From NCBI RefSeq assembly GCF_029643245.1, contig NZ_CP116398.1, positions 372,001-436,000 of the forward strand: a stretch of DNA of 64,000 bases, read 5' to 3'. Positions 32,692 through 42,603 of this stretch are shown here, piece after piece. Position 1 is the stretch's first letter, and every line of letters begins with the position of its first letter. The translations under genes and the position numbers were made by a program. The DNA is from Methylomonas sp. EFPC3. GTDB taxonomy: Bacteria; Pseudomonadota; Gammaproteobacteria; Methylococcales; Methylomonadaceae. Under the pieces are notes generated by a model. The model was not told the DNA's origin and did not search any database. It saw nothing but the letters and a program-made list of their open reading frames with translations.

Positions 32692-32872
32692 ATGTGCATA
32701 GTGTACAAACGGGAAAAGCTCTTCTGGTCTGCCGGGGAGTCATGGGTTAAAATTGCCCAGTTTATTTATGACAATTATCTGTAAAGGGAGTTTGTTGTCT
32801 GTTTGGTGTCGGGCGGCAAGATTACAACGATATAACGCATACAAGTTTATAACTACCAATGGGGGCTGCTCC

Positions 32873-34003
32873 GTGAAGAAAACTAAGCAACTGCTCGCAT
32901 GTTCGGTTCTGATGGCTTTAGGGCTCGGATCGGCGCATGCGGACTACACACTCAATCTGACGAAAGGCGTGACCCAGCTCAGTAACGAGTTGTACGACCT
33001 GCACATGTTGATCATGTGGATCTGCGTGTTTATCGGCATCGCGGTATTTGGCACGATGTTCTATTCGATTTTCCATCACCGTAAATCGAAAGGTCATAAA
33101 GCCGAGCAGTTCCATGAAAACACCACGGTCGAGATCATCTGGACTATCATCCCCACGCTGATTCTGGTCGGTATGGCGATTCCGGCAACCAAAGCCGTGG
33201 TCGATCTGGACCGGACTCAAGAATCGGAAATGTCGATCAAGGTGACCGGCAAGCAGTGGTATTGGGACTACGAATATCTGGACAACGGCATTCATTTCGA
33301 AAGCCACTTGGATGAAGCCAGCGAACGCGTCCACCGCGTCAGCTCTATGGACCCTCGTTCAGTACCTAACTATCTGCTGAATGTCGACAAACCGTTGGTG
33401 GTTCCGGTTAAAAAGAAAATCCGTTTCCTGTTTACCGCGGCCGACGTGATCCATTCCTGGTGGGTTCCTGAACTGGGCTGGAAAAAAGACGCCAACCCCG
33501 GTTTTGTCAACGAGGCCTGGACTTACGTCGACAAGCCCGGTACCTACCGTGGTCAATGTACCGAATTGTGCGGCCGGGACCACGGCTTCATGCCGGTGGT
33601 GGTGATTGCGATGGAGCAGGACCAATATGACGCCTGGGTGAAGGCGACTCTGGAAAAGCAAAACCAAGCCCCCGATCTGAGCGACCAAACCCGCAATTCG
33701 CTGATGGCCCATGGCGAATCGGTTTACCTGAGAAACTGCGTGGCCTGCCACCAGATCGACGGCAAAGGTATTCCGGGCTGGTTTCCGGCTTTGAGCGGCA
33801 GTGCCAAAGTGACCGGCAACATGGATCAGTTGATCGGCTTTATCCAAGCCGGTACCAGCAAAATGCCGGCCTTCCGCAAGCTGCCCGACAACGAGTTGGC
33901 CGAGCTGATTACCTATATCAGAAACGCTCCGGCGCTGGGTAACAACGTGGGTGATGAAATTCAGCCCAACAAAATCACACCCAAATGGGACGATGATGAG
34001 TAA
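32873..34003 (+). CDS. coxB: Cytochrome c oxidase subunit II with C-terminal cytochrome c domain
   Basis: 376 residues from GTG 32873 (GGGGG 8 bases upstream); the open frame reaches 32753, but residues before the GTG lack signal-peptide features. Signal peptide 1-24, two transmembrane helices (about 40-62 and 80-105). The CuA-binding cupredoxin domain has H at 203-ish and C-T-E-L-C-G-R-D-H-x-F-M. The C-terminal class I cytochrome c has C289-V-A-C-H293. The extra heme c domain is typical of caa3/A1-type oxidases that receive electrons from cytochrome c. It is the first gene of the oxidase operon. Confidence 0.93.
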   Translation: MKKTKQLLACSVLMALGLGSAHADYTLNLTKGVTQLSNELYDLHMLIMWICVFIGIAVFGTMFYSIFHHRKSKGHKAEQFHENTTVEIIWTIIPTLILVGMAIPATKAVVDLDRTQESEMSIKVTGKQWYWDYEYLDNGIHFESHLDEASERVHRVSSMDPRSVPNYLLNVDKPLVVPVKKKIRFLFTAADVIHSWWVPELGWKKDANPGFVNEAWTYVDKPGTYRGQCTELCGRDHGFMPVVVIAMEQDQYDAWVKATLEKQNQAPDLSDQTRNSLMAHGESVYLRNCVACHQIDGKGIPGWFPALSGSAKVTGNMDQLIGFIQAGTSKMPAFRKLPDNELAELITYIRNAPALGNNVGDEIQPNKITPKWDDDE

Positions 34004-34056
34004 TTCGTTGATGTACGCATTGAACTCATTTTCTAATTTTTGCTGAGGTATAAAAC

Positions 34057-35673
34057 ATGACTGCTGTCGTAGCTGAACATGATGATCATCACGATCACCA
34101 CGATCACGGCCCGGAGAAGGGCATTCTAAGGTGGATAATTACCACTAACCATAAGGACATCGGTACCCTGTACTTGGTATTTGCACTGGCGATGTTCTTC
34201 GTTGGCGGGACCATGGCGCTGATCATTCGCTCGGAATTGTTCGAACCCGGCCTGCAATTCGTCGATCCGAACTTCTTCAACTCGATGACCACGATGCATG
34301 CGCTGGTCATGGTATTCGGTGCCGTGATGCCGGCATTCGTCGGTCTGGCCAACTGGATGATCCCGATGATGATCGGCGCGCCGGATATGGCGTTGCCGCG
34401 GATGAACAACATGAGCTTCTGGATGCTGGTCGCCGGCGTTTTATTGCTGGCCAGCACACTGTTCATGGAGGGCGGTGCGCCTGCCGCCGGTTGGACTTTG
34501 TATCCGCCGTTGGTCTTGCAAACCGGAAAAGCGTTTCCGTTTGCGATCTTCTCGGTGCACATGCTGGGTATTTCGTCGATCATGGGTGCGATCAATGTGA
34601 TCGCGACCATCTTCAACATGCGCGCGCCCGGCATGACATTGATGAAAATGCCGTTGTTCGTCTGGACCTGGCTGATCACCGCATTCCTGCTGATCGCGAT
34701 CATGCCGGTATTCGCTGGCGCGGTAACCATGTTGTTGACCGATAAATTTTTCGCAACCAGCTTCTTCGACGCGGCTGGTGGCGGCGACCCGGTGTTGTAC
34801 CAACACATTTTCTGGTTCTTCGGTCATCCTGAAGTGTACGTGATGATTCTGCCGACCTTCGGCGTGGCGTCTACCATCATTCCGGTATTCGCCCGTAAAC
34901 CGCTGTTCGGTTACGCCTCCATGGTGTATGCGACCGGTGCGATTGCCTTCCTGTCGTTCATCGTTTGGTCTCACCACATGTTTACCGTCGGTCTGCCGAT
35001 TGCCGGTGAGTTGTACTTCATGTATGCGACGATGCTGATCGCCATTCCGACCGGGGTAAAAGTCTTCAACTGGACGGCAACCATGTGGAAAGGCTCGATG
35101 ACTTTCGAAACACCGATGTTGTTTTCGATTGCGTTCGTGGTGCTGTTCACGATGGGTGGTTTCACCGGCTTGATGATGTCGGTGGCGCCGGTGGATTTCC
35201 AATACCACGACACTTATTTTATCGTTGCTCACTTCCACTACACGCTGGTACCGGCGTCGGTCTTCATCCTGATGGCCGCCGGCTATTTCTGGCTGCCTAA
35301 GTGGACCGGAAATATGTACAACGAGAAAATCGGCAAACTGCATTTCTGGTTGTCGGCGATTTCGGTCAACATCCTGTTCTTCCCGCAACACTTCCTGGGC
35401 CTGGCCGGCATGCCGCGTCGGATTCCGGATTACGCGGTCCAGTTTGCTGATTGGAACATGGTGTCCAGTATCGGCGCCTTCATTTACGGTTTCAGTCAGT
35501 TGTTGTTCGTCTATATCGTGATCGACACGATTCGCGGCGGTACCGGCGAGAAAGTCAGCGACGAAGTTTGGGAAGATGCCAGCAAACACAGTCTGGAATG
35601 GACCGTGCCTTCGCCTGCGCCATACCACACCTTTACGACTCCACCGGAAAAAATTCCGACCGAGCATTTCTGA
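34057..35673 (+). CDS. coxA: Cytochrome c oxidase subunit I
   Basis: 538 residues and about 12 transmembrane helices. Heme-copper ligands are present: M-H-A-L-V-M (low-spin heme a), H-P-E-V-Y with the Tyr cross-linked to CuB His, H-H, and H-F-H-Y. It starts 53 bases after coxB. The N terminus is unusually His-rich ([10 protein letters not shown]). Confidence 0.97.
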
Positions 35674-35741
35674 TTCGGTTTTAGCGATGCCGGTTGACCG
35701 CTCCATCGGGATGTTGCCGATGGAGCGTCTCGAGGAGCAAC

Positions 35742-35840
35742 ATGGATATTAAAAAGAAAAATATTTTGACGGCGGTGGTGTTGGCAGCAATTGCGATAAC
35801 CATCTACGTGTTGGCGGTCATCAAGGCCATGTCGCAATGA
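35742..35840 (+). CDS. Small membrane protein of the cytochrome oxidase operon (CoxD/'oxidase small assembly protein'-like)
   Basis: 32 residues: basic M-D-I-K-K-K-N start, one transmembrane helix of about 20 hydrophobic residues, then K-A-M-S-Q. Strong ribosome-binding site GAGGAG 5 bases upstream of the ATG, and the stop overlaps the start of cox11 (ATGA). A tiny single-helix gene at this place between coxA and cox11 occurs in many proteobacteria and is annotated as an oxidase small assembly protein. It was missed by length filters. Confidence 0.75.
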   Translation: MDIKKKNILTAVVLAAIAITIYVLAVIKAMSQ

Positions 35841-36382
35841 GCGACGACGGTTTAGATAAAAAAAATACTCGTTTGGCGGCGAAACTGGTTTTGTTCGCCG
35901 CAATGATGTTCGGATTCGGTTATGCCCTGGTTCCGCTCTACAACGTGTTATGCGATTTGGTAGGGCAGAATGCCAAAGTCGAGACCGTGGCAAAACAGGA
36001 AACGGCGTTCCAGCCCGAGCAAAACCGCGAGGTGACGATGGAGTTTCTGACGTCGTTGAACCGGTCGGTGCCGATGGCGTTCAAGGCCGAGACGCCGAGC
36101 TTGAAAGTTCATCCGGGGCAGTATTACTCGGTGGGCTTTTATGCCAAGAATCTGAGCGAGCGCCGGTTGAAGGTGAGGGCGGTAGCGACTTATTCGCCGG
36201 GTCAGGTCAAGGATTACGTGAACAAAGTGATTTGTTTCTGCGAATTGGAGCAAATCTTCGAGCCGAACGAAGAAAAGAATATGACCGTACGTCTGGTGGT
36301 GGATCCCAAGCTCCCGGAACGCTATAAAACCATTACGCTGTCTTACACTTTTTTTGAAATTACTGAAAATTCTGAAAATTAA
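35837..36382 (+). CDS. cox11: Cytochrome c oxidase assembly protein (copper delivery to CuB)
   Basis: 181 residues. One N-terminal transmembrane helix, then an immunoglobulin-like periplasmic domain. The copper-binding motif I-C-F-C-E near 133-137 (C-F-C-type) and Y-N-V-L-C-D near 36 are present. Cox11/CtaG delivers Cu(I) to subunit I. It overlaps the 32-residue gene by 4 bases. Confidence 0.93.
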   Translation: MSDDGLDKKNTRLAAKLVLFAAMMFGFGYALVPLYNVLCDLVGQNAKVETVAKQETAFQPEQNREVTMEFLTSLNRSVPMAFKAETPSLKVHPGQYYSVGFYAKNLSERRLKVRAVATYSPGQVKDYVNKVICFCELEQIFEPNEEKNMTVRLVVDPKLPERYKTITLSYTFFEITENSEN

Positions 36383-36396
36383 CGAAGGGGAAGGTT

Positions 36397-37272
36397 ATGT
36401 CGACAAACACAGCTTATTACATCCCGCATAAAGCCACGTGGCCGGTGATGGCGACCGCCGGCTTGATGCTGACGCTGGCGGGCTTTGCCAACTATTTGAA
36501 CGGTAACTCGGCCGGTTCCGGCATGATGATTACCGGCTTGCTGGTTTTCATTGCAATGCTGGGAGCCTGGTTTGCGTTGCAAGCTACCGAGAGCGAGTCC
36601 GGCATGTACAACCACGGCGTCGGTATTTCCTACCGGATGGGCATGATGTGGTTCATTTTTTCGGAAGTCATGTTCTTTGCCGTATTCTTCGGCGCGTTGT
36701 GGTATACCCGCAACCTGTCGGTGCCCTGGTTGGGCGAAACCGGCCCCGTCAGCGGTCCGGGTCGCTCCACTCACGAGATATTGTGGCCTGCTTTCCAAGC
36801 GGTATGGCCCACCAACGGCCCGGGCAAAGTCGGCGGCGATTTCGAACCGATGGGCGCCTTTGGGTTGCCGTTCTTGAATACCCTGATTCTGTTGACCAGT
36901 GGCGTTACTTGCACTTGGGCTCACCACGGCTTGTTGGCGAAAAATCGTAGCCAATTGATCAAAGGCTTGGCGGCAACTGTCGGTTTGGGCTTTTTGTTCG
37001 TGGTTTTCCAAGCCAGCGAGTACCATGAAGCGTATGCCGAAATGGGGTTGACTTTGGGCTCCGGCATCTACGGTTCGACCTTCTTCATGCTGACCGGTTT
37101 CCACGGTTTCCACGTCTGCGTCGGCGCGATCATCTTGTCGGTAGTCTTGTTCAGAAGTTGGAAAGGCCACTTCACGCCGGAAAACCATTTTGCCTTCGAA
37201 GCCGCCGCCTGGTACTGGCACTTCGTCGACGTGGTCTGGTTAGGCTTGTTCGTGTTCGTTTACCTGCTGTAA
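36397..37272 (+). CDS. coxC: Cytochrome c oxidase subunit III
   Basis: 291 residues, seven transmembrane helices, with the conserved segment E-x-x-F-F (helix III) and H-V-x-x-G / F-H-V-D-V-V-W-L near the C terminus. It starts 14 bases after cox11 and is followed by a terminator that separates it from the convergent DUF2909 gene. Confidence 0.96.
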   Translation: MSTNTAYYIPHKATWPVMATAGLMLTLAGFANYLNGNSAGSGMMITGLLVFIAMLGAWFALQATESESGMYNHGVGISYRMGMMWFIFSEVMFFAVFFGALWYTRNLSVPWLGETGPVSGPGRSTHEILWPAFQAVWPTNGPGKVGGDFEPMGAFGLPFLNTLILLTSGVTCTWAHHGLLAKNRSQLIKGLAATVGLGFLFVVFQASEYHEAYAEMGLTLGSGIYGSTFFMLTGFHGFHVCVGAIILSVVLFRSWKGHFTPENHFAFEAAAWYWHFVDVVWLGLFVFVYLL

Positions 37273-37334: not shown

Positions 37335-37595
37335 TCAGGGGTTGGACGGGTTGGTCGAGGCTGGAGGAGCGTTGTGTATGCGTGTGCCGATGCCGTGAGG
37401 CTGGATCAGGCCGGTGGCCAAGGCGAGAAACAGTAAAATGAAGACGCCCAACGATACGCCGATCCTGACGGTTAAGGCCTTTGCCGTTTTTTTCGAATCT
37501 TCGTCGTCCTTGTGTTTGACAATGTGGAACAAGGCGGAGCCGAGGCTGACGACAATGGCGATGAATGCGGCAATGATGAGGATTTTGATGGGCAT
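37335..37595 (-). CDS. Twin transmembrane protein (DUF2909)
   Basis: 86 residues: two transmembrane helices (about 4-24 and 45-65) separated by a charged stretch with K-H-K-D-D-E-D-S-K-K, plus a Pro/Asn-rich tail. DUF2909 genes sit between coxC and surf1 in many gammaproteobacterial oxidase loci. Here the gene is on the opposite strand from its neighbours. Function unknown; oxidase assembly is the usual guess. Confidence 0.85.
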   Translation of the reverse strand: MPIKILIIAAFIAIVVSLGSALFHIVKHKDDEDSKKTAKALTVRIGVSLGVFILLFLALATGLIQPHGIGTRIHNAPPASTNPSNP

Positions 37596-37675
37596 GTCGG
37601 CGAAACCGGATAAAAATAAACATTTTCGGCGAATAAACTGCGCTTGCCAATAGCGGATAACGGTTGGAAAACAAT

Positions 37676-38419
37676 ATGGTCAGATTCAAATTTTTCGGGG
37701 TCGAGTTTCAGTTCGCCTGGCCGATGTTGGCCGGCTATCTGCTGCTGGTCGGGTTGTTGTGCAATTTGGGCTTTTGGCAATTGCGGCGCGGTGCTGAAAA
37801 GCAAAATCTGTTGGATGCGCAGCAGGCGGCGTTGTCTGCTCCGGCCTTGGATTTAAACGGCGATGTGTTAATCGACGTAGCGGAGTACCGTTACCGTCCG
37901 GCGACTCTGAACGGACATTACGATCACGCGCATCAGATTTTGCTCGACAATCAGGTCTTGGACGGTAAAGCGGGCTATCTGGTGTTAACGCCGTTTTTGC
38001 CCGGTAACGGTCAGGCCGCCGTTTTGATCAACCGGGGTTGGATTGGAATGGGCGTTTCGCGCGACACAGCGCCCGATCTGAGCGTAGTCGGCCAAATCGG
38101 GGCAGTTACGGGAAGGATCAACCGCTTTCCGGAGCCCGGTATCCGCTTGCAGGGCGCCGAAGTACCCGGCGATAGTTGGCCGGTGAGGGTACAAGTGATC
38201 GATACCCGGCTATTGGCCGAGAAAATGGGGTACGCCCTGGCCGATTACCAAATCGAATTAAGTCCGGATCAACCCGCCGGTTATCGCCGCGAATGGAAGA
38301 CAGCGGTGACGATCCCGCCTGAAAAACACCGGGCCTATGCAGTACAATGGTTCGGTTTAGCGTTGACCTTAACCGTGCTATTTGTTTGGCACAGCAGCCG
38401 TAATACACATCGTGGATAA
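37676..38419 (+). CDS. SURF1-family oxidase assembly protein
   Basis: 247 residues from ATG 37676; an in-frame TTG lies 12 bases earlier. Two terminal transmembrane helices (about 13-32 and 220-240) flank a periplasmic domain with G-W-I-G-M-G and Y-Q-I-E-L. SURF1/Shy1 proteins help insert heme A into subunit I. The last codons overlap the GTG start of the next gene. Confidence 0.92.
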   Translation: MVRFKFFGVEFQFAWPMLAGYLLLVGLLCNLGFWQLRRGAEKQNLLDAQQAALSAPALDLNGDVLIDVAEYRYRPATLNGHYDHAHQILLDNQVLDGKAGYLVLTPFLPGNGQAAVLINRGWIGMGVSRDTAPDLSVVGQIGAVTGRINRFPEPGIRLQGAEVPGDSWPVRVQVIDTRLLAEKMGYALADYQIELSPDQPAGYRREWKTAVTIPPEKHRAYAVQWFGLALTLTVLFVWHSSRNTHRG

Positions 38420-38999
38420 ACAACATCGTAAAAACCGCATCACTATTTTGGTGATTTTCGCCATGTCGGTAATTCCGTTCGGCATTGCCTGGTATCTGGC
38501 GAAACATCCTGACGCCGTGCGTCTGGGTACCAACCACGGCGAGTTGATCAGTCCGCCGTTGGTCACGGACGCGGGGGAGTTTTCCGGGGCCGATCCTTTT
38601 TCCGCAGAGCATATCGGCGAGTTGAAAGGACATTGGATCTTGGTTAATCCGGTGGCGGGCGAATGTGGCGAAACCTGCCGGGTGGCACTCCATAAAACCA
38701 ACCAAATCGGCTTGATGATGGGTAAGGACATTGCCAGAATCCGGCGCCTGGCATTGCTATTCGATAACAAACTGCCGCTACCGGCCGAGTGGCGCGAAGA
38801 CGGGCGTCTGCTGAAGGCTGCGCCTGCGCCAAGCTTGCAACAAAAAATCACAACAATAAATCCAAGTCCGCTACCGGATGGTAGCCTGCTGATCATGGAC
38901 CCGTTGGGCAACGTAATGATGAAATACGCGCCCGGTTACGATCCGTATCAGGTCAGAGACGACTTAGGCAAGTTACTCAGAATTTCACAAATCGGTTGA
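38412..38999 (+). CDS. SCO-like thioredoxin-fold protein of the oxidase locus
   Basis: 195 residues from GTG 38412. One N-terminal transmembrane helix, then a periplasmic domain with a C-x-x-x-C motif (E-C-G-E-T-C), as in Sco copper chaperones, but lacking clear conservation elsewhere. Such genes lie between surf1 and ctaA in many proteobacteria and are annotated hypothetical/Sco-like. It overlaps surf1 and ends 4 bases before ctaA-ftsY. Confidence 0.75.
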   Translation: MDKQHRKNRITILVIFAMSVIPFGIAWYLAKHPDAVRLGTNHGELISPPLVTDAGEFSGADPFSAEHIGELKGHWILVNPVAGECGETCRVALHKTNQIGLMMGKDIARIRRLALLFDNKLPLPAEWREDGRLLKAAPAPSLQQKITTINPSPLPDGSLLIMDPLGNVMMKYAPGYDPYQVRDDLGKLLRISQIG

Positions 39000-39003
39000 T
39001 CAC

Positions 39004-40977
39004 ATGTTCAGAAAACTAACCCTGTGTTGCGCGCTGCTGGCGCTGCTTGTCATCGTCGTCGGCGCCTATGTCCGCCTGACCCATGCCGGCCTTGGCTGTC
39101 CGGATTGGCCGGGTTGCTACGGTAAAGCCTTCGTCAGCGACAGCCCGCAATTCAAAGCCGACGCCGCAGCCGGTTTTCCGCAGCAAACGCTCGATACCGC
39201 CAAGGCCTGGAAAGAAATGGCGCATCGTTATTTGGCGGGCGGTTTGGCCGTTTTGGCGCTGGTCTGGTTCGGATTCGCCTGGCGCCAGCGCGAGCGGGCT
39301 GCCGCTTTGGCTTGGAGCGGGTTGGTACTGTTACTGATTGCCGCGCAGGCGGCGCTGGGCATGTGGACCGTTGCCTCGGGCACCATGCCGCTGGTGGTCA
39401 CCGGCCATCTACTGCTGGGTTTTGCCACGTTCTGGGCCATCGCCTGGAGCTATTTGCGCTTGCATCCGCAGTTGACGCCGAGATCGGTGAAGTCCGGGCC
39501 GACTTGGTTTGCCTGGATTGCGATTTTGGTATTACTGGCCCAAATCGGTTTGGGCGGATGGGTCAGCAGCAATTACGCCGGTCTGGCCTGCACCGATTTT
39601 CCACGTTGTAATGGCCAATGGTTGCCGGAGACCGATTACCAACACGCATTCGATCTATTCGGCAATGCCGATGCCTTGTCGGCCGATGCGAAAATGGCGA
39701 TTCAGGCGGTGCACCGGCTATTTGCCGGGTTTACCTTCTTGGTGTTGAGCGGATTGATGCTGGTTGCCACTTCCGAGCGTTACCCAAAACCGGTGCGCAT
39801 GGCCAGTAATGCTCTGAGTCTATTGTTGTTGATTCAAATCGCTCTCGGTGTCTTCGGCGTCAAATACACGCTGCCCTTGCCGCTGGCGGTTGCGCACAAT
39901 GCGTTCGCGGCTTTGTTGATGTTGCCGTTGTTGGCGATTTTACTGTTCAGCCGTTACCGGCTGGGCGAAGAAGCCGACGAAACCGGAGCGGAAATCGAAT
40001 TGGCTGTGCCTGCGGCACCGGCCGCCGAAGTCCCTGCGGAAGCGCCGGTCAGCCAGGAATCGTTATACCTGCGGCTGTCCAGCCAATTGCGAAAAACCCG
40101 CAGCGGCCTCAGCGGCGTATTGGGTAGCCTGGCGTTCGGTCAGAAAGCCGTCACCAAGGAATTGCTCGACGAACTGGAGGCGAATTTATTGATGGCCGAC
40201 ATGGGTATCGAGACCACGACGCAAATCATCAAACAACTGACCGATACCCTGGAACGCGACCAGCTCAGCGATGGGGAGGTGTTGACCGCTACGTTGAAGC
40301 AGAACTTGCAAAACATGCTGCAGCCTTGCAGCCAGCCGTTGCGGATTCCGCAACAGGACGGGCCGTTCGTGATTCTGGTGGTCGGCGTCAATGGTGTGGG
40401 TAAGACCACATCCATCGGCAAACTGGCCAAACGCCTGCAACAGCAAGGGCACAGCGTAATGTTGGCGGCCGGCGATACCTTCCGCGCGGCGGCGGTCGAA
40501 CAATTACAGACCTGGGGCGAGCGCAACAATGTTCAGGTTGTGGCTCAACATACCGGCGCCGACTCGGCCTCGGTGATTTTCGATGCCTTGCAATCGGCCA
40601 AAGCCAAGAACATCGATGTCCTGATCGCCGACACCGCCGGTCGCTTGCACACCAAATCCAATTTGATGGACGAGTTAAAGAAGATCAAACGCATCATGGG
40701 CAAATTGGACGAGTCCGCGCCGCACGAAGTATTGCTAATTCTGGATGCCGGCACCGGCCAGAATGCCCTGTCGCAAGCCAAGTTATTCAATGAAGCGGTC
40801 GAGCTGACCGGTATTGCTTTGACCAAATTGGATGGCACCGCCAAAGGCGGTATCATTTTCGCGTTGGCCAACCAACTGAGGGTGCCGATCCGTTTTATCG
40901 GCGTCGGCGAACAAATTGACGATTTGCAGGATTTCGATGCGAAGAACTTCGTCGATGCGCTGTTTGTGAAAGACTAA
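39004..40977 (+). CDS. Heme A synthase (CtaA/Cox15) fused to SRP receptor FtsY NG domain
   Basis: 657 residues in one unbroken frame. Residues 1-320 form a complete heme A synthase with about eight transmembrane helices, the four conserved heme-ligand histidines H74, H135, H237, H298, and Cys pairs C32/C38 and C196/C202. Residues 321-349 are an acidic then Ala/Pro-rich linker, like the FtsY A domain. Residues 350-657 are a complete FtsY NG domain: N-domain helix bundle, P-loop G-V-N-G-V-G-K-T-T (461-469), D-T-A-G-R at 543-547 and T-K-L-D-G at 607-611. ftsE starts 4 bases downstream, as expected for ftsY-ftsE-ftsX. ctaB, usually after ctaA, is absent. An internal start (for example GTG or TTG in the linker near 40000) could still give free FtsY. 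Confidence 0.9.
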   Translation: MFRKLTLCCALLALLVIVVGAYVRLTHAGLGCPDWPGCYGKAFVSDSPQFKADAAAGFPQQTLDTAKAWKEMAHRYLAGGLAVLALVWFGFAWRQRERAAALAWSGLVLLLIAAQAALGMWTVASGTMPLVVTGHLLLGFATFWAIAWSYLRLHPQLTPRSVKSGPTWFAWIAILVLLAQIGLGGWVSSNYAGLACTDFPRCNGQWLPETDYQHAFDLFGNADALSADAKMAIQAVHRLFAGFTFLVLSGLMLVATSERYPKPVRMASNALSLLLLIQIALGVFGVKYTLPLPLAVAHNAFAALLMLPLLAILLFSRYRLGEEADETGAEIELAVPAAPAAEVPAEAPVSQESLYLRLSSQLRKTRSGLSGVLGSLAFGQKAVTKELLDELEANLLMADMGIETTTQIIKQLTDTLERDQLSDGEVLTATLKQNLQNMLQPCSQPLRIPQQDGPFVILVVGVNGVGKTTSIGKLAKRLQQQGHSVMLAAGDTFRAAAVEQLQTWGERNNVQVVAQHTGADSASVIFDALQSAKAKNIDVLIADTAGRLHTKSNLMDELKKIKRIMGKLDESAPHEVLLILDAGTGQNALSQAKLFNEAVELTGIALTKLDGTAKGGIIFALANQLRVPIRFIGVGEQIDDLQDFDAKNFVDALFVKD

Positions 40978-40981
40978 ACCT

Positions 40982-41638
40982 ATGCTGAAATTCGAACACG
41001 TCAGCAAACGCTATCCGGATGCCGGCGAGGCGTTGACCGACGTCAGTTTTCATTTGCAACGTGGCGAGATGGCGTTTTTGACCGGGCGTTCCGGCGCCGG
41101 CAAAAGTACCTTGTTGAAGCTGATTGCAATGATGGAGCAATGCACGCGAGGCAATATTTTTCTGGACGGCCAGAATATCAGCCGCATCAGCGACCGGAAA
41201 ATACCCTATATGCGGCGTAACCTGGGTTTGATCTTTCAGGATTACAAGTTACTGAACGACCGGACCGTGTTCGATAACGTGGCATTGCCGCTGGTGGTTT
41301 CCGGTTATAACCATCAGGAAGTCGCGCGCCGGGTGCGAGCCTCGTTGGATAAGGTCGGCTTGCTGGGCAAGGAACGTAAGCATCCGCTGGCCTTATCCGG
41401 CGGCGAGCAACAGCGGGTTGGCATCGCCAGAGCCATCGTCAACAAACCGAAACTCATATTGGCCGATGAACCCACCGGTAACTTGGACCCGGATTTGTCG
41501 GCCGAAGTCATGCATATGTTCGAGCAATTCAAACAGGTCGGGGTAACGGTATTGGTCGCGACGCACGACATAGAATTGATCAATCATCTGGAACATCGGG
41601 TACTGACGCTCGACAAAGGCCACTTGGTAGCAAGCTGA
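40982..41638 (+). CDS. ftsE: Cell division ATP-binding protein FtsE
   Basis: 218 residues. Walker A G-R-S-G-A-G-K-S-T, Q-loop, L-S-G-G-E-Q-Q-R signature and Walker B L-I-L-A-D-E-P are complete. FtsE works with FtsX to activate septal peptidoglycan hydrolases via EnvC-like partners. It starts 4 bases after ftsY and ends at the start of ftsX, matching the classical ftsYEX operon. Confidence 0.95.
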   Translation: MLKFEHVSKRYPDAGEALTDVSFHLQRGEMAFLTGRSGAGKSTLLKLIAMMEQCTRGNIFLDGQNISRISDRKIPYMRRNLGLIFQDYKLLNDRTVFDNVALPLVVSGYNHQEVARRVRASLDKVGLLGKERKHPLALSGGEQQRVGIARAIVNKPKLILADEPTGNLDPDLSAEVMHMFEQFKQVGVTVLVATHDIELINHLEHRVLTLDKGHLVAS

Positions 41639-42603
41639 TGATGAAACAAATCCGCCGTAAACATGCCGGCAACCGCATCGTGGAATTATTTCAGGCCTAT
41701 CTGCTAAACCACGCCCACGGCCTGTTTTCCAGCCTGGGTCGCTTGACCCGCACGCCGTTTACCTCGGCGATGACTGTGTTGGTATTGGCGATTGCGGTTT
41801 CGCTGGCCAGCAGTTTCTATATCGTCGTCGCAAACGTCGAGCAGCTAACCGGCAATCTGGAGTCGAGCAACCAAATGTCTCTGTTCCTGCATGAGGGCAT
41901 TACCGATGCGGCCGGGCAGAAGCTGATGGAGCAGTTGCAGCAAAATGCTAGCGTTGCCGAAGTCAAGTACATCAGCAAAAAGCAGGCGTTGGAGGAGTTC
42001 AAAGCCAATAGCGGTTTCAGCGATGCGTTAAACGCGCTGGAGCGCAATCCCTTGCCCAGCGTGATTCAGGTGTTGCCGAAGAACGCGCTGGAACACAGCG
42101 AGGATATCGAGAAATTGATGGCCGATTTCAAACAATTGCCGCAAGTCGAATTCGTCCAGGTCGATATGCAATGGGTAGCGCGACTGCAAACCATTATGCT
42201 GATCGCCAGCCGGGGCGTGCTATTGGTCAGCTTGCTGCTCGGATTTGCCGTGACGTTCATCACCGGCAACACGATTCGCCTGGAATTGCAAAACCGTCAG
42301 GACGAGGTGTTCATTTCCAAGCTGGTCGGTGCTACCCATGCTTTTATCCAGCGTCCGTTTCTATACACCGGATTCTGGCTCGGCTTCATCTCCGGCTTCT
42401 TGGGTTGGCTGATCGTCACGGTCATGCTGCTGATCCTGGAATCGCCGGTGGAGAAATTGTCTACCCTATACAACAGTTCGTTCGAATTGCTGTTTTTGAG
42501 TTTTTCCGAGTTCCTGCTGTTACTGATGATTTCGGCCGCGCTGGCGGTGCTGGGTTCTTGGGCGGTGTTGCACTATCAACTACGCCAACTAAAACCTCAG
42601 TAA
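41638..42603 (+). CDS. ftsX: Cell division permease-like protein FtsX
   Basis: 321 residues, starting one base before the end of ftsE. Four transmembrane helices (about 38-62 and three between 190 and 310) and a periplasmic FtsX extracellular domain (about 70-180). It is the membrane partner of FtsE. The usual next gene rpoH is replaced by a YcgN gene. Confidence 0.95.
   Translation: MMKQIRRKHAGNRIVELFQAYLLNHAHGLFSSLGRLTRTPFTSAMTVLVLAIAVSLASSFYIVVANVEQLTGNLESSNQMSLFLHEGITDAAGQKLMEQLQQNASVAEVKYISKKQALEEFKANSGFSDALNALERNPLPSVIQVLPKNALEHSEDIEKLMADFKQLPQVEFVQVDMQWVARLQTIMLIASRGVLLVSLLLGFAVTFITGNTIRLELQNRQDEVFISKLVGATHAFIQRPFLYTGFWLGFISGFLGWLIVTVMLLILESPVEKLSTLYNSSFELLFLSFSEFLLLLMISAALAVLGSWAVLHYQLRQLKPQ

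Follow-up and report, generated by a model that had tools for sequence, protein, structure and literature searches.

In Methylomonas sp. EFPC3 the receptor of the signal recognition particle (SRP), FtsY, is encoded as the C-terminal part of a single protein that begins with heme A synthase, CtaA. The gene lies at 39004..40977 in the window, by which we mean the whole 64,000-nucleotide stretch of DNA analysed here (contig NZ_CP116398.1, positions 372,001 to 436,000); coordinates below are those of the window, and features are on the plus strand unless marked otherwise. FtsY is essential and its mode of membrane attachment has long been debated; with CtaA fused in place of the A domain, this FtsY should be an integral membrane protein. 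We consider it probable that the observations as a whole are best explained by an SRP receptor anchored through CtaA, which would have arisen by one inversion, become locked in, and later undergone decay of the N-terminal half (N-half) of its enzyme moiety.

The first-pass annotation of this DNA, made from the letters alone, had described a complete CtaA continuous with a complete FtsY NG domain in one uninterrupted frame, and both points are borne out. The open reading frame starts with ATG and runs for 657 codons with zero stops or shifts inside. Against Pfam, COX15-CtaA matches residues 4-307 (237.8 bits, cut-off 29.9), SRP54_N residues 371-435 and the SRP54 GTPase domain residues 454-654 (262.7 bits), while in NCBIfam the FtsY equivalog TIGR00064 scores 373.5 bits, above its cut-off of 260.7, and the alphaproteobacterial CtaA equivalog NF045570 scores 57.2 bits against 550. 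The GTPase motifs G1, G3 and G4 read as GVNGVGKTT (461-469), DTAGR (543-547) and TKLDG (607-611). All nine key residues of CtaA are present, matched by motif to the Bacillus subtilis residues named in PMC12808453, which, like the other PMC articles below, is cited for excerpts of its text. In the B. subtilis enzyme the N-half provides E57, H60 and H123 to the heme O substrate site, and the C-terminal half (C-half) has two more histidines, on helices VI and VIII, that hold a low-spin heme b (PMC12808453). By homology, the N-half of the fusion (residues 1-160, transmembrane helices TM1-TM4; 39004..39483), with C32 and C38 (Cys pair 1), E71, H74 and H135, is the predicted heme O substrate site, and the C-half (residues 161-318, TM5-TM8; 39484..39957), with C196 and C202 (Cys pair 2), H237 and H298, is the predicted heme b site.

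An AlphaFold model of the fusion, built with 48 sequences, has a mean predicted local distance difference test score (pLDDT) of 85.1 and a predicted template modelling score (pTM) of 0.54, at which the relative placing of the CtaA and FtsY halves is undefined. It holds eight long helices before the NG domain (2-25, 65-92, 98-124, 129-152, 167-189, 227-255, 262-287 and 292-317), an even number that in the model returns the C-terminus to the membrane side of the N-terminus; the N-terminus of CtaA we take to be cytoplasmic. The linker that follows (residues 319-350; 39958..40053), drawn from sequence and model, is acidic and rich in Ala and Pro, as first described, although between TM8 and the amphipathic helix it measures about 32 residues and not 29. 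In the model it comprises a helix extension at 321-334 and a stretch of low confidence at 327-348 (pLDDT <50). Helices 351-361 and 363-377 correspond to the amphipathic, lipid-binding region alphaN1 at the N-domain border (40054..40134, beginning ESLYLRLSSQLRKTRSGLSG...), which the fusion retains; its position and pattern match those of the free FtsY of outgroups, and lipid binding is predicted. The NG domain proper (40135..40974), assigned by profiles and fold match, finds its closest match in the Protein Data Bank (PDB) in 6cqp_B, with a TM-score of 0.94 by target length and 63% identity. A fold search with two whole models gave FtsY/Ffh-type GTPases among the matches listed; the list was filled by the NG domain, and the absence of CtaA rows there carries no meaning. 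What is missing is the usual acidic A domain with the first lipid-binding motif, in whose place stand CtaA and the short linker. The A domain has been described as poorly conserved (PMC5533587), and we do not treat it as defining for membership of the FtsY family.

The source genome is a single contig of 4,443,658 bases, 99.91% complete, and a whole-genome search found no second FtsY. Both sequence tests named in the first-pass annotation, for an interruption of the frame and for a second ftsY, thus came out in its favour. The search returned only the fusion and three weaker matches, one Ffh-like (34%), one to a second CtaA (32%) and one FlhF-like (30%), the Ffh and FlhF labels resting on identity and length of the matches. 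Among 151 genomes sampled from the family, 144 had an FtsY match, and in 142 of these CtaA and FtsY lie in one open frame; the fusion of one further genome (G041) is cut by contig ends, with one piece covering residues 117-421 and thus the junction. A look for the same fusion in related Methylomonas genomes had been proposed, and it occurs in Methylomonas sp. SURF-1 (90% identical to the window protein), M. koyamae and Methylomonas sp. WSC-6, as well as in Crenothrix polyspora, whose match begins only at residue 74 of the window protein, and in one Methylococcales and one Methylothermaceae metagenome-assembled genome (MAG). Joined frames in 142 of 144 family genomes and in these six named records rule out an assembly or frameshift artefact, or chance.

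A sample of the order (201 genomes in eight families, labelled f1-f8) placed the fusion in families f1-f6 among the matches listed. We collected 131 FtsY frames and, after removal of two unfused ones (G167, G157) and one broken by TGA (G045), aligned the remaining 128 fused proteins (f1, 103; f2-f6, 25); fragments from G207 and G163 stand outside this set. In the sister families f7, which we take to be the Cycloclasticus group, and f8, ftsY and ctaA are separate in the five genomes read. Their free FtsY is of ordinary size (frames of 343-353) and carries a short N-terminal tail of the MFGFGKKK type instead of CtaA (5/5), and their separate CtaA is intact, with the residues CCEHHCCHH in 5/5. 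Beyond the order, a class sample (369 genomes, 365 of them outside the order, 6/369 without a match) and an overlapping phylum sample (398 genomes, 397 besides that of the window, 21/398 without a match at 1e-60) were searched and the best ~150 matches by E-value considered. No fusion outside the order appeared among the matches listed, where none from outside it starts before query residue 303, in a screen that is blind to CtaA parts too divergent to raise the score and that leaves several long frames unread. In a separate search one candidate from a Pyrinomonadaceae MAG (L278), matching from residue 283, was read as a 371-aa frame without CtaA and set aside. Judged from these frames, the fusion is real and common to six families of one order.

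Gene order offers a simple origin for it. In 4/5 of the f7/f8 genomes ctaA and ftsY lie on the same contig and on opposite strands; in G167 (f7) and G157 (f8) two M16 genes face away from ftsY-ftsE-ftsX-rpoH, which is followed by an opposed ctaB-ctaA-sco, preceded on the ctaB side by an aspartyl protease gene in f7 and by two other genes in f8. The one f6 genome read (G172) has instead sco-ctaA|ftsY-ftsE-ftsX-rpoH, then an inverted ctaB and M16-M16 (rpoH and M16 being named from their sequences and not profiled). A single inversion of the segment ctaB-rpoH-ftsX-ftsE-ftsY against the end of ctaA, with breakpoints at ctaA/ctaB and M16/ftsY, would convert the f7/f8 order into the f6 order. In f4 (G195) the inverted ctaB still adjoins M16, and at this locus (L127) ftsE, ftsX and rpoH were not found beside the fusion. 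No ctaB was found in the stretch in nine other fused neighbourhoods or in the window; in the source genome ctaB is found at 3.44 Mb and the fusion at 0.41 Mb. In a tree of FtsY domains from 70 fused and 16 outside sequences the fused proteins form a clade free of outsiders, and a separate FastTree phylogeny, rooted on f7/f8, supports the fused clade at 0.933. Most likely, therefore, the fusion arose once, in a way that a single inversion would fit.

Once formed, the join appears to have outlasted much of the enzyme. Of the 128 fused proteins, 51 retain every residue of the N-half set (C, C, E, H, H), and the full nine are likewise present in 51, with a division that follows taxonomy: 27/27 proteins of the window's genus are complete in the N-half, against 24/101 elsewhere. 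With 77/101 incomplete outside the genus, the idea of a heme A synthase serving as anchor suits Methylomonas more than it does its relatives. On the tree the N-half set is lost 20 times under Dollo parsimony, which allows no regain, or changes 13 times under Fitch parsimony, while each single C-half residue is lost 2-3 times and 125/128 proteins keep the C-half set (C, C, H, H). Decay goes furthest in the genus g13, whose proteins (5/5 aligned) are 564-569 aa long with helices 2-3 deleted, such that helices 1, 4 and 5-8 remain as read from the alignment with one modelled protein, and in G057, where both CtaA halves are altered and Pfam is blind to CtaA, with FtsY intact.

Selection on the two halves differs in the same sense. 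With one sequence per genus (37 decayed and 14 intact), the sites conserved in at least 90% of the decayed set number 1/160 in the N-half, 13/158 in the C-half and 156/303 in NG, compared with 47, 29 and 173 in the intact set. Median Nei-Gojobori ratios of nonsynonymous to synonymous substitution (dN/dS) within genera, from 138 intact pairs in which two genera dominate and 30 decayed pairs, are 0.103 intact and 0.195 decayed for the N-half, 0.099 and 0.091 for the C-half, and 0.045 and 0.043 for NG, from which we read an N-half that is relaxed yet constrained and a C-half without relaxation. Together these patterns suggest that an enzyme was turned into an anchor in many species, the join being kept while CtaA decayed. 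What lacks a good explanation is the retention of the heme-b half. One tentative and rather doubtful idea is that this SRP receptor is a hemoprotein, in which the bis-His heme-b bundle and the periplasmic Cys pair sense redox, oxygen or heme; the heme-b half would then tune the targeting of membrane proteins, such as the oxidase or methane monooxygenase, to respiratory state, and such a role would explain why the C-half rather than the catalytic half survived the loss of heme A synthesis.

The N-half may have been free to decay where another CtaA was at hand. Of 77 genomes searched for CtaA, 74 are fused, and 71 of these have a second CtaA match, as do all 54 decayed genomes searched (at least one further CtaA-family match each). 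The three with the fused CtaA only (G154, G021, G047) all keep the catalytic set intact, as against 17/71 of those with a second match. No second match was found in G156, G167 (f7), G157 (f8), G021 and G047 (g21) or G154 (f5) among those searched. The second CtaA of the source genome (324 aa; L003:1474-2448, at about 1282003 of C1) stands alone and is of a different subtype: it has an E..NR motif, three His and Cys pair 1, without the second Cys pair, much like the H60N types listed in a table of PMC8239418; no cox gene was recognised among the open reading frames of the 3.5-kb stretch around it. Second copies were read in seven genomes, six of them decayed; all seven retain the Glu, Cys pair 1 and the motif Tyr-[Val/Ile]-His-Arg and carry Asn where the first His would be, and five match every motif examined.

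The explanation that we favour joins these observations as follows. Presumably expressed at full length, the protein would use its CtaA moiety, eight helices with both ends predicted to be cytoplasmic, to keep the NG GTPase permanently on the cytoplasmic side of the membrane, with CtaA standing in for the A domain and the first lipid-binding motif. In FtsY the first, dynamic contact is made by the motif at the N-terminus of the A domain and the stable, SRP-driven one by alphaN1, and FtsY pre-set in the stable mode targets indiscriminately in vitro and does not support cells (PMC5533587), so the switching of alphaN1 must not be hindered by an anchor. In the fusion alphaN1 would be kept for this SRP-triggered step: CtaA would give permanent proximity and alphaN1 would still perform the switch, for which the length of the linker (median 37 residues, range 22-63, net charge -6 across the 128 proteins) would leave room. 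The first-pass notion of a polytopic enzyme as tether accords with the predicted helices, with the unfused sister families and with published evidence that membrane-tethered FtsY is functional in vivo (PMC2780400). The single inversion would have placed ftsY-ftsE-ftsX-rpoH directly 3' of ctaA, and the join would have been locked in because FtsY is essential, has no other copy and has no conserved start of its own. With a second CtaA present, the N-terminal substrate half would then have decayed repeatedly, leaving an anchor and the C-terminal heme-b half. In Methylomonas, and in lineages in which no other CtaA was found, the fusion is probably bifunctional, its heme A synthase site being intact.

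Several observations weigh against this account. The heme-b site is evidently dispensable in the three C-half exceptions (G025, G124 and G057). Seven of the 151 family genomes (G004, G032, G101, G125, G131, G134 and G145) have no FtsY match, and one of them, G032 (f1, g6), is listed as 100% complete, its best match being Ffh-level (E 2.3e-39); its missing FtsY is probably an assembly gap. The fusion of G045, a 75% complete draft, contains a single in-frame TGA, and in the draft G207 (G207:C243:4354-6067, minus strand) CtaA and FtsY pieces adjoin in separate broken frames, a sign of assembly errors or else of a fusion that is damaged or split. Bootstrap support for the fused clade is modest (ultrafast bootstrap 72). 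The association between copy number and intactness (Fisher one-sided p = 0.018) ignores kinship, and its three genomes with the fused CtaA only represent two lineages. G047 (f1, g21; 1.7 Mb, 99% complete) keeps its catalytic set with no coxA match, which speaks against a simple oxidase link; coxC, surf1 and a SCO-like gene lie beside its fusion near a contig end, and either a gap in the assembly or a genuine loss could account for the absent coxA. In 16/128 linkers a start codon of some kind has a Shine-Dalgarno-like site, about the background of 4.7% per codon position, and cleavage of the linker could separate the two parts.

An unlikely reading, taken as a full account, is that the lock-in served no function, FtsY having lost its own start and CtaA drifting as a passive segment, a case of constructive neutral evolution. 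The 13-20 decays of the N-half, the raised dN/dS of its decayed forms and the fall of the G057 CtaA below Pfam detection are all what such drift would produce. The C-half is harder to accommodate, for its ligands and Cys pair persist almost throughout, its dN/dS is no higher in decayed than in intact proteins, and in the decayed set its conserved sites far outnumber those of the N-half; retention together with low dN/dS implies that the C-half, at least, does something. For the N-half, passive lock-in is compatible with the anchored-receptor explanation.

More doubtful, though linker cleavage makes it the strongest rival to action at full length, is the possibility that the fusion is only a precursor, cut in the linker by a protease or divided by a ribosome restart, such that the joined frame would serve co-expression only. 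The linker shows little conservation, is acidic and was modelled with low confidence, and a title cited in PMC2780400 describes the N-terminal anchor of FtsY in E. coli as cleavable. The restart variant is countered by the linkers themselves, in which no conserved internal start for free FtsY was found across the 128 genes: 111 hold some start codon and 35 an ATG of any kind, yet an ATG with a Shine-Dalgarno-like site occurs in 1/128. An internal start, which the first-pass annotation had allowed for, was accordingly rejected as a conserved signal, the counts lying near background. Moreover, stop and restart would be a simple route to two proteins, yet of the f1-f6 frames read only those of the drafts G045 and G207 are interrupted between CtaA and FtsY, and even strongly decayed CtaA (G057, g13) remains in frame, which would be odd if only free FtsY mattered.

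It is very improbable that the fused CtaA is a working heme A synthase everywhere, with altered residues tolerated and the coupling to FtsY aiding oxidase insertion and hemylation. Such a role would suit a fusion with coxA or coxC in the stretch around it in 47/58 genomes (several stretches stop at contig ends), a coxA-type match in 76/77 genomes and a catalytic set complete throughout the window's genus, and some natural CtaA types are substituted at E57, H60 or H123 (PMC8239418). The Glu, however, is strictly conserved according to PMC12808453, yet lost in 68/128 fused proteins; helices 2-3 are missing in g13; every decayed genome searched holds another CtaA-family match; and the second copies read all keep the Glu, most of them matching every motif.

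In the window the fusion stands at the 3' end of an aa3-type oxidase operon. Upstream lie coxB, coxA, ctaG and coxC (32753..37272; names read from translations and not profiled), SURF1 (37664..38419; PF02104) and a 205-aa gene at the SCO-like position (38382..38999), which has no Pfam match and whose position is kept in relatives. Downstream, ftsE (40982..41638) starts 4 bases after the fusion stop, as the first-pass annotation had noted, and would have moved with ftsY in the inversion; ftsX (41638..42603) follows. On the opposite strand within the cox operon lies an 86-aa gene (37335-37595, minus), present at the same place in 58/60 neighbourhoods, both unfused ones included, and presumably a DUF2909 protein. 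Methane oxidation was considered as an explanation for the fusion and dropped: pmoA-family genes occur in 73/80 genomes searched, and also in 5/6 f7/f8 genomes, which are unfused, so copper monooxygenases do not separate fused from unfused.

Compared with bacterial FtsY as defined by TIGR00064, the fusion shares the NG domain, the GTPase motifs, alphaN1, a downstream ftsE-ftsX and its status as sole copy, and differs in having an eight-helix enzyme, or its remains, for the A domain and first lipid-binding motif. Some Gram-positive FtsY proteins naturally possess a true transmembrane helix (Bibi et al. 2001, summarised in PMC2780400), and both kinds would be held by true transmembrane sequence; the fusion, however, has the fold of a polytopic heme-binding enzyme, another ancestry and a proteobacterial setting. 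It shares its design with the engineered anchored FtsY of 1997 (in PMC2780400), an NG domain on a membrane anchor with the A domain absent, although that construct is artificial and CtaA-FtsY is natural and common to six families. The eukaryotic SRP receptor, whose SR-alpha GTPase is permanently tethered by the integral SR-beta (PMC2780400), is likewise membrane-held, but in two subunits rather than one chain and with an anchor of a different kind. From the enzyme side, the fusion of the window agrees with CtaA of type 1B / 1.1, which has a Glu, four His and two Cys pairs, in the nine residues, the cox context and the eight helices. The fusion departs from that type in the added C-terminal FtsY and in the substrate half so often incomplete outside the genus.

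A CtaA-FtsY fusion was not found described in the titles and abstract openings of the open-licence literature searched. The fusion partner of CtaA named in the excerpts of PMC9145763, PMC8239418 and PMC12808453 is heme O synthase (CtaB); PMC9145763 and PMC8239418 gave no matches for FtsY, signal recognition or Methylo- names, PMC12808453 gave none for Methylo- names, and in the excerpts of PMC3568101 FtsY was found only as a tree marker. By the literature searched, CtaA-FtsY would be an integral-membrane FtsY of undescribed form, and genes of this kind are open to misnaming as CtaA alone or FtsY alone. If our explanation is right, the passage from enzyme to receptor anchor could be traced along a tree step by step, from fused and intact through loss of the catalytic half and deletion of helices to a fold no longer recognised, and it would be a puzzle why an SRP receptor keeps a heme-b site. 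An order with important methane oxidisers among its members would also have run a natural tethering experiment in six of its families, from which a permanently anchored SRP receptor would emerge as both viable and old.

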